Shown piece by piece: positions 4,246 to 35,792 of a DNA stretch of 35,792 bases. Within the stretch, counting starts at the first letter, position 1, and each line of letters starts with the position of its first letter. Source of the DNA: Sulfurimonas sp. endosymbiont of Alviniconcha boucheti (GTDB lineage: Bacteria; Campylobacterota; Campylobacteria; Campylobacterales; Sulfurimonadaceae); the NCBI GenBank assembly GCA_021766785.1, contig JAICBP010000083.1, forward strand, positions 33,161-68,952. The letters are read 5' to 3'. A program made the translations under genes and the position numbers. The notes below the pieces were generated by a model, which saw only the letters and a list, made by a program, of their open reading frames with translations, did no database searches and was not told where the DNA came from.

Positions 4246-5574
4246 ATGAATAGAAAAATATTTTTTTCCCTTTTTCTTGCCCTCTCTTTAAACGCTATGA
4301 GCCTCGATGAGACAATAGAAAGAGCCCTAGCGCAAAATAACTCTTTAAAGAAGGTTATTTTGAGTAAAGATGAGGCTAAGCAGAACAAAGAGGCCAAAAA
4401 GTCTCAAAACTACGGTAGGATCGATCTAAAGGTTGATTATGATCACTTCAACAAAGCTCGTACACTCGCACCACTTACTCCAATGGACATCGTTTCTTCG
4501 CCGACCGGTGCTTACGAGATGCCGACAACAAACGACCTCGTTTCTGCCGGTATAGCTTACAATGTGGTGCTTTTTGATGGTTTTGCACAGCAAAACTCCT
4601 ACAAGATTTCCGATTTGGCATATAAAAACTCTACACTCAAGATCAAACTTGCCAAAGAGGAGCTGATTTACAATGTAAGAAGTCTTTATCTCTCTTTACT
4701 TGCTTTGCAAGAGCAACTTGATGCACAAATGAGGTATGTATCTTCGCAAAAAAAGCTTTACGAGTATGTTCAAAAAGAGTATGAGCTTCAAAGTAAATCT
4801 AAACTCGATCTTTTGGAGGCAAAAAACTCTTATGCTGAAGCAGTTTCAATAAGAGAGAAAATAGCAGCTAACATCGAGATTCTAAAAACCACCTTGGCAA
4901 AGATGATTGCATCGGATAGTTTCGATAAAGCTGAAAGGGTAGATGTGAACTTTGATGAAGCAAAAGAGAGTGGGATGGGAATCGAGGAGCTAAGCAGGTT
5001 CAAGCTGGCAGAGTTCTCCAAAACCATCGCACAAAAGAGACTCCAAAGTGTTAAGTCTCTTTACTATCCAAAGGTGAATCTCTCTGCCTACTACGGATAC
5101 AGTATTGGTCCAAATGCGACAACGAACATATTTCCTACAACTGGTAAAACATACTTAGAAGAAGGGGAGTTTAACTCCGAAAATATATGGCAGATTGGGG
5201 TGCATCTTAAATGGAATATCTATGACTTTGGAGTGAAAAGTTCAAGTGTTCAAAAAGAGAAAATTGCACTAAGAAGAGCGAAAATCGATATGGACGATAT
5301 AAAGCTAGAGCTTGTCAAGGGGCTTAAGATCGCAAAAAGCAAACTATCCCTTGCAAAAGCCGATTACGACTCATTAAAGAGTCAATATGAACTACTTTTA
5401 GAGATAGAAAAAGCACAAAGTATCAAGCAGAAGAGCAATGCACTCACATTGACGAGTCTGCTTGATACTAAAGCAAAAACAGCACTTGTGCATGCGAAGA
5501 TGATAAATGCAAAATATGAGTACCAAAAAGCGAAATACTATATAGACTATTTGTTGGAAAAGGGAGAGAAATAG
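4246..5574 (+). CDS. TolC-family outer-membrane efflux protein
   Basis: The protein has 442 residues from the ATG at 4246, preceded by AAGGA at a workable distance. A TTG at 4237 would sit almost on the ribosome binding site and is rejected. A signal peptide is followed by two long helical repeats rich in Lys, Glu, Leu and Ala, with beta-strand stretches between them. This is the outer-membrane factor layout: each monomer gives four strands to the barrel and long coiled coils to the periplasmic tunnel. Visible family features are AYNVVLFDGFAQQNSYKI and its repeat counterpart LKWNIYDFGVKSSSVQKEK. It is the first gene of the TolC-adaptor-RND operon, and its TAG directly abuts the next ATG. Confidence 0.9.
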   Translation: MNRKIFFSLFLALSLNAMSLDETIERALAQNNSLKKVILSKDEAKQNKEAKKSQNYGRIDLKVDYDHFNKARTLAPLTPMDIVSSPTGAYEMPTTNDLVSAGIAYNVVLFDGFAQQNSYKISDLAYKNSTLKIKLAKEELIYNVRSLYLSLLALQEQLDAQMRYVSSQKKLYEYVQKEYELQSKSKLDLLEAKNSYAEAVSIREKIAANIEILKTTLAKMIASDSFDKAERVDVNFDEAKESGMGIEELSRFKLAEFSKTIAQKRLQSVKSLYYPKVNLSAYYGYSIGPNATTNIFPTTGKTYLEEGEFNSENIWQIGVHLKWNIYDFGVKSSSVQKEKIALRRAKIDMDDIKLELVKGLKIAKSKLSLAKADYDSLKSQYELLLEIEKAQSIKQKSNALTLTSLLDTKAKTALVHAKMINAKYEYQKAKYYIDYLLEKGEK

Positions 5575-6648
5575 ATGAAAAAGATTATATTAACAGTGGT
5601 TGCCATACTAGTTATTGTGTCCGCAGGATTGTTTTTGAAAAAACAAAAAGAGAGTGTTGCAAATCTACCTACTGCAAAGGAGTATTCAAAAAGTATTGAT
5701 ATAACTTTGGCAAAAAAAGAGCAGCTTTCACAAAAAAAGGAGTTTTTGGCTCAGGTACTCTCCTCAAAGAGTGCCAATATTGCCACGAAGTTTGTTGCAC
5801 GGATAAAAAAGGTCTATGTTGAGGAGAATGACAAGGTTAAAAAGGATCAGTTGCTTGTCGCTTTAGACGACAGGGAGATACTCGCAACACTCTCCTCACT
5901 CAAAGAGCAAAAAAAATCCCTCCAGCTCGATGTAGCCAACGCAAAAGATGTTTTAGAGCGTAAGAAGAAGCTTTATGAGATAGAGGCGATCTCCAAAGAG
6001 GCTTTTAATACCTCAAGAGCAATCTATCAGACAAGACTCTCAGCACTCAAAGCGACTGAAGAGAAGATCAACCAGACAAAAGTACAGCTTCAGTACTTAA
6101 ATATTACAGCACCTTTTAATGGAGTTGTCGGCTCGAAGTTGCTTGATGCTGGCTCTTTAGCACCTGCTAGTAAAGTAATCCTTACTCTTAATTCAGATGA
6201 TCAAAAGCTTAACTTTATGTTCTCACAAAACGACAAGCCTATTGTTAAGGGTCAAAAGGTCTTTTTAGGTAAGAAAGAGATAGGAGAGGTCACAAAAATA
6301 TACGATGATGCAAGAAACACCCTTCTTGTAGCAGAAGTTAAACCAAGCCATCCCCTCCCTTTTGTCAATAAGTCGTATATAAATATAAAGGTGGAGATAG
6401 ACAACACAGATGGTTGCACGCTCCCTTTGAATGCTCTTTTGCATAAGCAAGAGGGGACTTTTATTATGGTTTACAAAGGTGGCAAGTTTCACCCCCTTAA
6501 AGTGGATGTGGTACTAGAAAACGACAAAAAAGCTGCTATTGCCCCTTGTCCAAAAGAGCCAGTGGCCTTGGCTTCAGAAGCGAAACTCTCCATCCTTCCG
6601 ACTTATGGAAAAATCATAGTAAATGAGCCATATAAGTATGAAAAATAG
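5575..6648 (+). CDS. RND/HlyD-type periplasmic adaptor (membrane fusion protein)
   Basis: The 357-residue protein links the inner-membrane pump to the outer-membrane channel. An N-terminal anchor (about residues 4-21) is followed by a split lipoyl half (residues 75-105, KVYVEENDKVKKDQLLVALDD), a coiled-coil hairpin rich in Lys and Glu (about 105-170), and the second lipoyl half, APFNGVVGSKLLDAGSL. A beta-barrel and a membrane-proximal domain complete the usual order. The start codon immediately follows the TolC stop, and the 3' end overlaps the RND gene, so the three proteins are made together. Confidence 0.9.
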   Translation: MKKIILTVVAILVIVSAGLFLKKQKESVANLPTAKEYSKSIDITLAKKEQLSQKKEFLAQVLSSKSANIATKFVARIKKVYVEENDKVKKDQLLVALDDREILATLSSLKEQKKSLQLDVANAKDVLERKKKLYEIEAISKEAFNTSRAIYQTRLSALKATEEKINQTKVQLQYLNITAPFNGVVGSKLLDAGSLAPASKVILTLNSDDQKLNFMFSQNDKPIVKGQKVFLGKKEIGEVTKIYDDARNTLLVAEVKPSHPLPFVNKSYINIKVEIDNTDGCTLPLNALLHKQEGTFIMVYKGGKFHPLKVDVVLENDKKAAIAPCPKEPVALASEAKLSILPTYGKIIVNEPYKYEK

Positions 6649-31206: not shown

Positions 31207-31240
31207 AAAAATTTGACTCCCCGCTTATCACAGGGAATCA
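31207..31240 (-). terminator. Terminator-like hairpin after the repetitive surface protein gene
   Basis: On the minus strand GATTCCC pairs with GGGAGTC (one G-U pair), followed by AAATTTTTC. It lies about 24 bp past the stop at 31264. Confidence 0.5.
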
Positions 31241-31263
31241 AAAAAATCAATAATACTATCGCG

Positions 31264-32940
31264 TTAGTCTTTTATACAACGGACGCTTCTTCCACCATCG
31301 CGATACCAGTTGCTAAACATAATATCAAAAAGGAATTTTGTGTACATTGCGCGGGAACCCATAGGTGTACTGCTCCAGTACACGCCCAACTCTCCTGCAT
31401 CGATTATTTGACCTGATTCCATACCAGCTGCAGGCAGTTTTAGAACATTTGGTGCAACAATCTTACTATCTGCTGAGCTCCAATGTTTTATCTCTTTAGT
31501 GAGTTTAAGATCTTCTGGCACTTTGTATCCTACAGGACAGACATTGTTTGGATTTGATTCGCTTGCCCATAGAGTGTCATCTTGGTTTACTCTCCAATCA
31601 TGACGTATATCTTCGCCCCAGATAAACAGTGGATTAGATGGTTCATCTGCTCTTATGCCTGTTCTGCCGTATTTTCTAGTTCCCTCAGTACTACTTATCC
31701 AGTTGATTAGCTCATGCCCATCTGCTTTTCTTCCCCATTGGAAACTTGAACCGTAAGCTTTGTAATCGTCAATCGCTGTAGCTTGTTGCGTGGGGTTAAA
31801 AGCAGAGTTGTTCATATCTGCATAGTCAGCTCCAAGGTTATTGTTTAGCCAAACTCTTCCCGTAACATGGCTGGTTACAGATGCATATATGAATTGATGC
31901 TGATATTCACCATTTGTCTGTACATTAAAGTTTCTGTCCAGTATTCCGGGTATGACTTTAAGTGTAACTGTACCGGTAGAGCCTGCGTCATCTGTCGGAT
32001 AGTTAAATGTAGCTACAGTTCTACCTGCTCTATCATCTTCTGCATCTAACTTTTTAGCATTGTATGTAGCACTTGTAGTAATGGTTGCATTAAATACACG
32101 ATCTTTTCCTACTTTAAGGTTTGATTGCTCTGACCAGCTGAATGTTGCAACTATATCTGCCACACCATCTTCTGTATCTGCTGCATCTATAGTGTATGTT
32201 GTACTATATGCCGGTAATGTTGTTGTGTTGTTTTCAACAGTGTATGGAATTTCTATAGTTACAGTGTTTGGACCGCTATCTATAACACCTTGAATATCTA
32301 TAGCAGGAGTGTATGGTGTGTTGTCATATATACTCACCACATTTGCTTCTAGACTTGTCCAATCAATCTTGATATTAGCAGGAAGAGAAGCATTTTCTTC
32401 CATTGTAAATTGTTTTATACAACGAACAGAGTATCCAAGCCCTCTGCCGCTAGTATCAAGTAAGCCCAAAGCGTTCCCGAAGTACATGTCACGCGCGTTA
32501 CTTACAGTACTATTATTACCGTCACTAGGGACGACTGAACCAGTCCAATAGATACCGTAACCCGGTGTCCACCAAGTAATAGCACCGCCAGATGTAAGGC
32601 CGCCAGCTGTAGTCAGTTTTAGATCACTTGACATAGAACCGTTAACATCTTTTGAATCCCAACTATTTAATTCTACAGCAAGCTCATTCTCAGCATCTAC
32701 TGCTCCATTTGGATTTAGTGGCAGCCTGTATCCTACCGGACAGACATTGTTTGGACTTGATTCATTTGCCCATAGAGTATCATCTGGAGTTACTCTCCAA
32801 TCACTATATTTCGTAATAAAGAGTGAATCAGATGGATTATCATTTGCTGTATCTGTTTCGCCGTATTTTCTAGTTCCTGCAGTAGCGCTTGTCCAATCCA
32901 TTAGCTCATGTCCATCTGCTTTTCTTCCCCATTGAAACAT
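31264..32940 (-). CDS. Repetitive FISUMP-domain surface protein, 3' part after a frameshift
   Basis: This is the downstream half of the large gene that enters from the right edge. The 558-residue frame starts inside the second FISUMP module (MFQWGRKADGHEL), which runs to SVRCIKQ. A beta-rich linker domain of about 170 residues follows (TPYTPAIDIQG, then LKVIPGILDRNFNVQTNG), then a full third FISUMP module (GRVWLNNNLGADYA to SVRCIKD) at the C terminus. The Met at 32940 is an internal residue, not a real start: removing 17 bp at 32975-32991 joins this frame exactly to the upstream one. FISUMP (Fibrobacter succinogenes major paralogous) domains occur in secreted or surface proteins; the function is unknown. 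Confidence 0.8.
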   Translation of the reverse strand: MFQWGRKADGHELMDWTSATAGTRKYGETDTANDNPSDSLFITKYSDWRVTPDDTLWANESSPNNVCPVGYRLPLNPNGAVDAENELAVELNSWDSKDVNGSMSSDLKLTTAGGLTSGGAITWWTPGYGIYWTGSVVPSDGNNSTVSNARDMYFGNALGLLDTSGRGLGYSVRCIKQFTMEENASLPANIKIDWTSLEANVVSIYDNTPYTPAIDIQGVIDSGPNTVTIEIPYTVENNTTTLPAYSTTYTIDAADTEDGVADIVATFSWSEQSNLKVGKDRVFNATITTSATYNAKKLDAEDDRAGRTVATFNYPTDDAGSTGTVTLKVIPGILDRNFNVQTNGEYQHQFIYASVTSHVTGRVWLNNNLGADYADMNNSAFNPTQQATAIDDYKAYGSSFQWGRKADGHELINWISSTEGTRKYGRTGIRADEPSNPLFIWGEDIRHDWRVNQDDTLWASESNPNNVCPVGYKVPEDLKLTKEIKHWSSADSKIVAPNVLKLPAAGMESGQIIDAGELGVYWSSTPMGSRAMYTKFLFDIMFSNWYRDGGRSVRCIKD

Positions 32941-32951
32941 TGAACCATAAG

Positions 32952-35792
32952 CTAGGTAGTCAGTACTTGCTGTCGCTTGTTGTGCAGGGTAGCTTGTTGT
33001 GCAGGGTTGAAGTTACCATTAGAGTTATTCGTATCTGCATACTCAGCTCCTAGGTTATTGTTTAGCCAAGTTCTTCCTGTAAGTTGGTTAGTTACAGGCA
33101 TATATATAAATCTATGCTCATATATACCATTTGTTTGTACATTAAAGTTTCTGTCTAGTATTCCAGGTATGACTTTAAGCGTAGCTGTACCGTTAGAGCC
33201 TGTGTTATCTGTCGGGTAGTTAAATGTAGCTACAACTTTACCCACCTTATCATCTTCTATATCTAGTTTTTTAGCATTGTATGTAGTACTTGTAGTAATG
33301 GTTGCATCAAACACACCATTTCCTACTCTAAGGTTTGGTTGCTCTGCCCAGCTCAATGTTGCAACTATATCTGCCACGCCATCTTCCGTATCTTCTGCAG
33401 CTATAGTAACTGTTTTACTATATGCCGGTAATGTTGTTGTGTTGTTTTCAACAGTGTATGGAATTCTTAGAGTTACAGTGTTTGAACCATCATCTACAAT
33501 ACCTTGAATATCTATAGCAGGATTGTATGGTGTGTCGTCATCTATGCTCACTATATTTGCTTCTACACTATCAATCGTGATATTAGCAGGAAGAGGATCA
33601 TTTTCTCCCATTGTGTTTTGTTTTATACAACGGACAGACATTCCATATGATCGGTCGGAAATGCCAACAAGGTTGACCTGTGAACCGAAGTATATATTAC
33701 GCGCTTTGACTCCAGCGACTGAACCACTCCATACATCGCTGTATTTTCCCGTATCAAACATTGAGCCGTTAGTGTTGCGTGCACCAGCCATAGGCAATTT
33801 TAGATCACTCGACATAGAACCGTTGGCATCTTTTGAATCCCAACTATTTAATTCTACGGCAAGCTCATTATTAGTATCATCTGCTCCATTTGGATCTAAT
33901 GGCAGTCTGTATCCTATCGGGCAGACATTGTTTGGGCTTGATTCATTTGCCCATAGAGTATCATCTTGGTTTACTCTCCAACCACCGTTTGATATAATAA
34001 AGAGTGAATTAGATGGATCATTAGATTTTGTAGATGTTATGCTGTATTTTCCAGCTCCTGCAGTACCACTTGTCCAGTTGATTAGCTCATGCCCATCTGC
34101 TCTTCTTCCCCATTGAAAGAGTGAACCGTAAGCTCTATGGTCAGTACTTGTTGTAGCTTGTTGCATGGGGTTGAAAGCAGAGCTGTTCATATTTGCATAA
34201 TCTGCTCCTAGGTTATTGTTTAACCAAACTTTTCCTGTAGTTGAATTTTTTATAGGCATATAGACAAATTTATGCTCATATACACCATTTGTTTGTACAT
34301 TAAAGTTTCTGTCCGGTATTCCAGGTATGACTTTAAGATTTAATGTCCCCACAGATGAATACTCATCTGTTGCATACAAAAATGAAGCGGCTGTATATCC
34401 ACTCGCATTTAGATTTAATTGTCTTGCATGGTAAGTATTACTATCACCGGTAAGCACGATCTTTGCATTAAAATAACCATCTCCTGCAGATAGAGTTATG
34501 CCACTCCATTTAAATACTACAACAACTCCGCTGTCATTATCACTTGTGTTACCGACATCAATAGTAAATTCAGAACTTGTAAAATCGTTAAGAGGTGTAT
34601 TGTTATCTGAATGATAAGGCACTCTAACCAACAGACCATTTGACGCTATCTTTCCATCTACATTTATACCATAAGAAGTATCAAGCATACTTACTAGAGT
34701 TGCCGTAAGTGTCGGTGCTGTAATGGTAACACCTGCCGGAAGTAAAGCAGGCAGACTATCTACTATGCTTTGAATAGTACTTGCTGAATTTACGGTTCCA
34801 CCTCCTGCAGTTGTTCTATGAAGTGCCACATTGACTGCATTTACACTACTTGCTGTTACTCCTGTTATACCTGCATCTAAGTAGTCTTGTAGTGTTGGTG
34901 CCGGTTTTGTGTTGTCATTTGCATATGTTGTGATTTTTGCTACTGCTATTGCTGCTTCTGCTGCTTTTGCTGCTGCTTCTGCTGCTGAATTTACCGAATT
35001 AATTACTCTTTGAACCTCTGCCGCTGTTGGCTTTGTCCTATCGACAAATGTTCCTGCATGTAGTGCTATTGAATAATTAACACCGTCAATCGCTCCGCTT
35101 ACACCGTCTATCGCATTGATTTCAGAAGCTGTTGCCGGTGTATGGTCTGCATTTCCTGCAATATCCTCCACAACCGCTGCAAATTCTCTTGCTATATTTA
35201 CTGCATCAATTACTGTTTGAATTTCTACTGCTGTTGGGTTTGTCCTATCGGCAAATGTTCCTGCCTGTAGTGCTGTTAAATAATCAACACCGTCAATCGC
35301 TCCACTTACACCGTCTATCGCATTGATTTCAGAAGCTGTTGCAGGTTTACCGTCTGCATTTCCTGCAATATCCTCCGCAACGGCTGCAATTTCATTTGCT
35401 GTATTTGCTACATCAATTACTGTTTGAATTTCTGCTGCTGTTGGCTTTGTCCTATCGACAAATGTTCCTGCATGTAGTGCTGTTGAATAATCAACACCCT
35501 CAATCGCTCCGCTTACACCATTAATCCCATTGATTTGAGAAGCTGTTGCAGGTTTACCATCTGCATTTCCTGCAATATCCTCCACAACCGCTGCAATTCT
35601 ATTTGCTGCATTTACTGCATTAACTATTGCTTGAATTTCTGCTGCTGTTGGGTTTGCTTTATCGGCAAATCTTCCTGCTTGTAGTGCCGCTGAATAATCA
35701 ACACCCTCAATCGCTCCACTGACACCGTCAATCGCATTGATTTCAGCGACTGTCATCGGTATCTTTTTAGGATCAGGATTTGGATTTGGATT
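32952..35792 (-). CDS. Repetitive FISUMP-domain surface protein, 5' part, open at the window edge
   Basis: The frame is open to 35792 (residues NPNPNPDPKKIP precede the first Met at 35756), so the true N terminus lies outside. In order there are: four 69-residue repeats (EINAIDGVSGAI plus GVDYS, then PTAAEIQ-VID-VN and EDIAGNADG); an Ala-rich helix; a further variant repeat; a beta-rich linker domain (about residues 340-500); a FISUMP module (about 505-714); a second linker (715-885); and the start of a second FISUMP module (GRTWLNNNLGAEYA). The frame then shifts at a 17-bp duplication and ends at a TAG at 32952 after LHNKRQQVLTT. Repair of the duplication gives one continuous protein of more than 1,500 residues in the window, probably a secreted adhesin-like or matrix protein (inference). 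Confidence 0.82.
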   Translation of the reverse strand, partial: NPNPNPDPKKIPMTVAEINAIDGVSGAIEGVDYSAALQAGRFADKANPTAAEIQAIVNAVNAANRIAAVVEDIAGNADGKPATASQINGINGVSGAIEGVDYSTALHAGTFVDRTKPTAAEIQTVIDVANTANEIAAVAEDIAGNADGKPATASEINAIDGVSGAIDGVDYLTALQAGTFADRTNPTAVEIQTVIDAVNIAREFAAVVEDIAGNADHTPATASEINAIDGVSGAIDGVNYSIALHAGTFVDRTKPTAAEVQRVINSVNSAAEAAAKAAEAAIAVAKITTYANDNTKPAPTLQDYLDAGITGVTASSVNAVNVALHRTTAGGGTVNSASTIQSIVDSLPALLPAGVTITAPTLTATLVSMLDTSYGINVDGKIASNGLLVRVPYHSDNNTPLNDFTSSEFTIDVGNTSDNDSGVVVVFKWSGITLSAGDGYFNAKIVLTGDSNTYHARQLNLNASGYTAASFLYATDEYSSVGTLNLKVIPGIPDRNFNVQTNGVYEHKFVYMPIKNSTTGKVWLNNNLGADYANMNSSAFNPMQQATTSTDHRAYGSLFQWGRRADGHELINWTSGTAGAGKYSITSTKSNDPSNSLFIISNGGWRVNQDDTLWANESSPNNVCPIGYRLPLDPNGADDTNNELAVELNSWDSKDANGSMSSDLKLPMAGARNTNGSMFDTGKYSDVWSGSVAGVKARNIYFGSQVNLVGISDRSYGMSVRCIKQNTMGENDPLPANITIDSVEANIVSIDDDTPYNPAIDIQGIVDDGSNTVTLRIPYTVENNTTTLPAYSKTVTIAAEDTEDGVADIVATLSWAEQPNLRVGNGVFDATITTSTTYNAKKLDIEDDKVGKVVATFNYPTDNTGSNGTATLKVIPGILDRNFNVQTNGIYEHRFIYMPVTNQLTGRTWLNNNLGAEYADTNNSNGNFNPAQQATLHNKRQQVLTT
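32975..33008. repeat. 17-bp tandem duplication that breaks the reading frame
   Basis: GCTTGTTGTGCAGGGTA (32975-32991) is followed at once by GCTTGTTGTGCAGGGTT (32992-33008). The equivalent places in FISUMP modules 1 and 3 have only one copy. Deleting one unit restores NPAQQATASTDYLAYGSMFQ, in full agreement with the sister modules. Confidence 0.88.
34929..35756 (-). repeat. Four tandem 207-bp coding repeats
   Basis: The marker CATTGA within each unit lies at 35735, 35528, 35321 and 35114, an exact 207-bp (69-codon) period. Units are highly alike at DNA level; the last one degenerates at its end into an Ala-rich segment. Near-identical in-frame repeats of this kind change copy number by recombination. 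Confidence 0.88.

Follow-up and report, generated by a model that had tools for sequence, protein, structure and literature searches.

A frame-breaking 17-bp repeat in a multi-module FISUMP lipoprotein gene of Sulfurimonas is probably an out-of-register junction of two module versions rather than a switch

A short direct repeat that throws a surface-protein gene out of frame raises the question of whether it serves as a reversible switch or arose by an accident. We examined such a repeat in a window (the whole stretch of DNA analyzed, 35,792 nucleotides; G000:C81:33161-68952) from a draft genome of 83 contigs and 2.24 Mb, for which the original prediction had proposed on/off control of the C-terminal third of the protein. 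The affected gene neighbors a cytochrome peroxidase gene whose named relatives are mostly from Sulfurimonas. It starts outside the window, at an ATG at L013:9394, and encodes a lipoprotein signal peptide, a Pro/Asp/Asn linker, approximately four Ala-rich repeats of about 207 bp, and three FISUMP/Fib_succ_major modules. A putative lipobox, LGIGMSGC, with its Cys near the N terminus as in bacterial lipoproteins, was read directly and by eye in MMNLQQKILAALLVLGIGMSGC. A 268-bp run of N lies inside the gene and begins at window-equivalent position 35793, the first base beyond the window. In the N-terminal half of the lipoprotein gene, positions 34983-35746 hold an in-frame tandem array of approximately 3.7 units of 207 bp (87% matches).

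When compared to the Fib_succ_major/FISUMP proteins (PF09603 and TIGR02145), the modules match both models, although the parts of the window gene itself score 21.7 to 29.5 bits, below the curated cut-offs of 33.9 and 41.65. A neighboring paralogue gene passes, with 53.9 bits against the TIGR02145 cut-off of 41.65. The present case differs from those proteins in the unusually large number of modules within one Sulfurimonas genome. Modules of the family align with one another at 52 to 62% identity. AlphaFold2 modeling of one module from a two-row alignment gave a pLDDT of 27, and a sequence search of the PDB found no credible relative.

As originally described, two adjacent 17-bp units occupy positions 32974-33007 and differ at a single base, C at 32974 and A at 32991 (Table 1). 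None of 60 simulated windows with the same dinucleotide composition contained an adjacent duplication of comparable quality, so the repeat is not explained by chance. It splits the minus-strand gene into parts of 1,093 and 558 amino acids in different frames. The gene is indeed knocked out of frame, and "C-terminal third" is an apt description, as the 558-aa frame makes up about one third of the protein. After the duplication, the upstream frame closes with a short out-of-frame tail, LHNKRQQVLTT. Judged from its reading frames, the gene as written would yield a truncated lipoprotein that retains the membrane anchor, the linker, and module 1 and lacks modules 2 and 3. The proposed recent date of the change agrees with the 558 downstream codons, which are open, and with the 3' end, where 1,189 bp are identical to the C79 paralogue. 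The open downstream frame itself shows only that the break is either recent or not real. Across 183 codons, module 2 and its C82 relative have 10 synonymous and 24 replacement-codon differences, counts that say little about constraint.

Table 1. Features of the multi-module lipoprotein gene and its 17-bp repeat, in window positions
Feature	Position	Strand	Description
Multi-module lipoprotein gene	31264..35792, continuing past window end	-	5' end at C81:69393 (window-equivalent 36233)
FISUMP module 1	33621..34325	-	Intact
FISUMP module 2	32413..33164	-	Split by duplication; domain pieces L013:5574-6149 and 6140-6325
FISUMP module 3	31270..31950	-	Intact
Adjacent 17-bp duplication	32974..33007	-	C+GCTTGTTGTGCAGGGT (32974-32990), A+GCTTGTTGTGCAGGGT (32991-33007); out of frame
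Upstream reading frame	32952..35792	-	1,093 aa from out-of-window start; stop at 32952; module 1 and first part of module 2
Downstream reading frame	31264..32940	-	558 aa, internal ATG, no evident ribosome-binding site; rest of module 2 and module 3
C82-like tract	32428..32984	-	94% identical to module L014:1936-2492; last 72 bp (32913-32984) exact
C79-like tract	32989..33068	-	80 bp identical to corresponding module site, L049 near 5940-6020
C79-identical 3' tract	31236..32424	-	1,189 bp, no difference from L049:6545-7733

Paralogous modules offer 50 homologous sites that could be measured in the fetched loci of this genome. The anchor-to-anchor spacing is 97 bp at 44 sites, 103 bp at five, and 120 bp (103 + 17) at the window site only. 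The 103-bp class corresponds to an in-frame insert of two codons, so that the frame is kept at 49 of the 50 sites and the window site is the sole departure from frame at this position. The 17-bp repeat is absent from all 49 other homologous sites measured in the genome. Removal of one unit had been said to restore perfect agreement with the sister modules in the window. It does not, because the broken module belongs to the 103-bp class, while the two sister modules belong to the 97-bp class. The search for the same site was extended to a genus sample of 135 genomes, in which G020 alone gave a match, at approximately 74% DNA identity. A contig search with the 558-aa part brought up no further isolate or near relative that has this site, and none of 35 loci fetched by synteny with the neighboring cytochrome peroxidase gene contained a FISUMP module.

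The two sides of the duplication resemble different paralogues. The C82 counterpart of the tract at 32428-32984 starts at a single-N join, and the C79 copy of the 1,189-bp tract stops precisely at an N run of 2,157 bp. Copy 1 has the C82 base (C) and copy 2 has the C79 base (A), each matching its own flank. Because the differing base is that of each paralogue, the copies can be read as two module versions; they look like one site in two paralogue versions, not like the outcome of slippage plus a chance mutation, and the single differing base probably did not arise at random. Slippage alone needs a later point mutation that coincidentally matches a paralogue, whereas a junction of versions, or a duplication with conversion of one side, needs no coincidence. 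If a slippage duplication had later undergone gene conversion on one side, the same pattern would be expected. Copy 1 also runs on into CAGGGT; this hexamer is absent from the C82 module, which is therefore not the exact source of copy 1.

On the sequence comparisons, the 17-bp repeat probably marks a faulty seam and not a switch. In this reading, a C82-like and a C79-like version of one FISUMP-module site were put together with an offset of 17 bp, so that the gene would hold the shared 16-bp stretch twice and lose its frame. The seam reading draws on the 94% identical C82 flank, the exact 80-bp C79 flank, the paralogue-specific bases, and the 49 of 50 sites without the repeat, as well as on the frame-breaking duplications and unmerged contig overlaps elsewhere in the assembly, its N runs, and the 268-bp N gap in the gene. 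Against it stand the lack of N at the seam itself and the CAGGGT of copy 1. In addition, the flanking exact tracts (72 and 80 bp) are shorter than most of the exact repeats that stopped the assembly, which mostly exceed 100 bp, and in one study duplications within one contig were seldom assembly errors and were usually supported by reads (PMC2864568). Directly visible in the sequence are the duplicated unit, the broken frame, the limits of the tracts, the bases specific to each paralogue, and the restriction of the repeat to one of 50 sites; that the join was an accident is an inference. A join made by the assembly is marginally likelier than one-off recombination or slippage in the cell.

False duplications from unmerged contigs (Kelley and Salzberg 2010, PMC2864568) are a close parallel. 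They share with the window site the adjacent near-identical copies and the flanks from two versions of one sequence, each copy here being a different version tied to its own flank. Unmerged overlaps at N joins are also seen elsewhere in the present assembly. The published cases differ in that they are whole-contig overlaps in diploid animals, in contrast to 17 bp without N here.

An assembly origin would mean that contig ends were joined without merging of their overlap, or that a gap closer wrote the seam, with the living gene one-copy and intact; we give this close to an even chance. Unmerged overlaps do occur at single-N joins in sister genes. In L021, an exact repeat of 188 bp lies flush on either side of a single N (5139-5326 and 5328-5515), and a similar unmerged overlap, with a 250-bp period around N, is found at L112:2104. 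Runs of N are 3.6-fold denser in the FISUMP family: the module loci (139 kb) contain 26 of them, and other sequence of the same genome (535 kb) contains 28. At the window gene, an N gap closes the identical C79 copy, and a single-N join marks where the C82 match begins. Other frame-breaking duplications contain no N: sister FISUMP genes carry out-of-frame adjacent duplications of 11 bp (L019:431-452) and 331 bp (L024:4678-5250). An adjacent duplication of 13 bp, again without N, splits an unrelated hydrolase-like lipoprotein gene (L107:1142-1168; C80, near 81,141) that is one intact frame of 451 to 457 aa in the relatives G018, G001, and G014.

Frame-breaking adjacent duplications number four in 139 kb of module loci, the N-linked 250-bp case included, and one in 535 kb elsewhere, a moderate excess (binomial p of approximately 0.008). 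None were found in 400 kb from two single-contig relatives, although the difference in counts from these relatives is not significant (0.10). The window site was counted by hand, as the automatic frame-break test missed it because of the stop close behind the repeat. An assembly origin is weakened by the seam being free of N, by the read support that short within-contig duplications usually had in one study (PMC2864568), and by the ability of ordinary reads to cover 34 bp. Assembly error, named from the outset as the main alternative, has thus gained ground from the gaps concentrated in the FISUMP family and the unmerged contig overlaps, short of proof.

The same seam could also be a real one-off loss-of-function mutation, produced by slippage or by out-of-register recombination between paralogues and leaving a recent pseudogene. 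This is a substantial possibility, though one with less than an even chance. The module loci contain 215 exact tracts of at least 60 bp common to copies that are otherwise mostly 75 to 85% identical, and because these copies are otherwise diverged, exchange between paralogue modules is probably common. Some of the tracts may themselves be products of the assembly. The downstream frame is still open, and a real break would therefore be recent. However, neither a second lesion nor an independent isolate accompanies the break, and the seams are concentrated in badly assembled loci.

A phase-variation switch, in which one or two copies of the 17-bp unit toggle the C-terminal modules, is unlikely. 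Surface lipoproteins are common targets of phase variation, and the perfect 16-bp direct repeat could in principle be removed by slippage or recombination. However, the repeat has only two copies with one mismatch, and it is missing from all other homologous sites. Moreover, the truncated product retains the anchor and first module and so does not amount to an off state of the whole protein. Like lesions also occur at unrelated positions in sister genes and in the hydrolase-like gene outside the FISUMP family. Together with the resemblance of the copies to two paralogue versions, this leaves the on/off switch of the original prediction unsupported. Contingency loci governed by tandem-repeat copy number likewise have an out-of-frame direct repeat in a surface-protein gene. 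They differ from the window repeat, which is limited to two copies at one of 50 homologous sites, appears mosaic in origin, and neither recurs nor varies among the paralogues compared. What looks like a switch can turn out to be a seam where paralogues meet. Tandem-array expansion was rejected as an origin, because the site has just two copies and the arrays of 18, 36, and 45 bp found elsewhere are in frame and separate from it.

A further reading, quite unlikely as a whole, takes the duplication as a true allele within a large FISUMP lipoprotein family whose members recombine, in a Sulfurimonas that may be animal-associated. Under it, out-of-register module exchange would repeatedly make and remove frame-breaking short duplications (17, 11, and 331 bp), and the displayed module set would vary between cells. 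Antigenic variation by paralogue recombination, as in the MgPa adhesin operon of Mycoplasma genitalium (PMC2169797), resembles the present family in its size and in the exact tracts common to divergent copies. In the present genome, by contrast, no silent cassettes with an expression site were recognized, and most copies look like full genes.

Programmed frameshifting or internal re-initiation that makes both parts functional products is very unlikely: the internal ATG at 32940 does open the 558-aa frame, but no Shine-Dalgarno-like sequence lies upstream of it, its position inside the module core means that the product would be mid-domain from the outset and devoid of an export signal, and slippery sites were looked for by eye only.

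Fib_succ_major is listed among the target domains of diversity-generating retroelements (DGRs) (PMC4159848). The likeness to DGR targets lies in the domain family; the difference is that the six reverse transcriptases found here are of the LINE type and lie on separate contigs. A DGR origin was rejected, since these are endonuclease-reverse transcriptase ORFs unconnected to the modules, and regions of approximately 3.5 kb around them gave no blastn match to the module loci that could represent a template repeat. The six ORFs, of the animal LINE type (endonuclease plus RVT_1), are on the N-rich contigs C1, C69, and C75 (L025-L030, L115, and L116). They suggest that eukaryotic, probably animal, DNA was left in the bacterial assembly and that the sample may have come from an animal-associated source. 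The assembly is reported as 99.99% complete and 0% contaminated despite these ORFs. Alviniconcha snails are hosts of Sulfurimonas-type symbionts (PMC6702916, PMC7580541).

The FISUMP family itself is a more rewarding lead than the repeat, with exact tracts shared by divergent copies and few or no members in most of the 135 genus genomes searched. It is very large: a single Sulfurimonas genome carries 50 or more module sites (e.g., in L013, L014, L020, L021, L022, L024, and L049), with mosaic exact tracts. With a model of the modules, this genome gave 20 matches that were scored (a first look had 113 candidates), G020 gave nine, and 19 further genomes of the genus gave one to six. G020, a genome of 1.3 Mb, is the only other member of the genus with close DNA matches to the family. 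A broken gene in this family should not be taken as biology unless reads bear it out. Elsewhere in the genome, two CRISPR-like arrays (L137:1212-3700 and L135:8203-8600) are built on a 36-bp repeat, GTTTCAATCCCCTTTAGTCGGGTCATAGTATTCAAT, and a 37- to 38-bp repeat, CTAACAAATTATACCTAATCTCTACTTAGTTTGAAAC.
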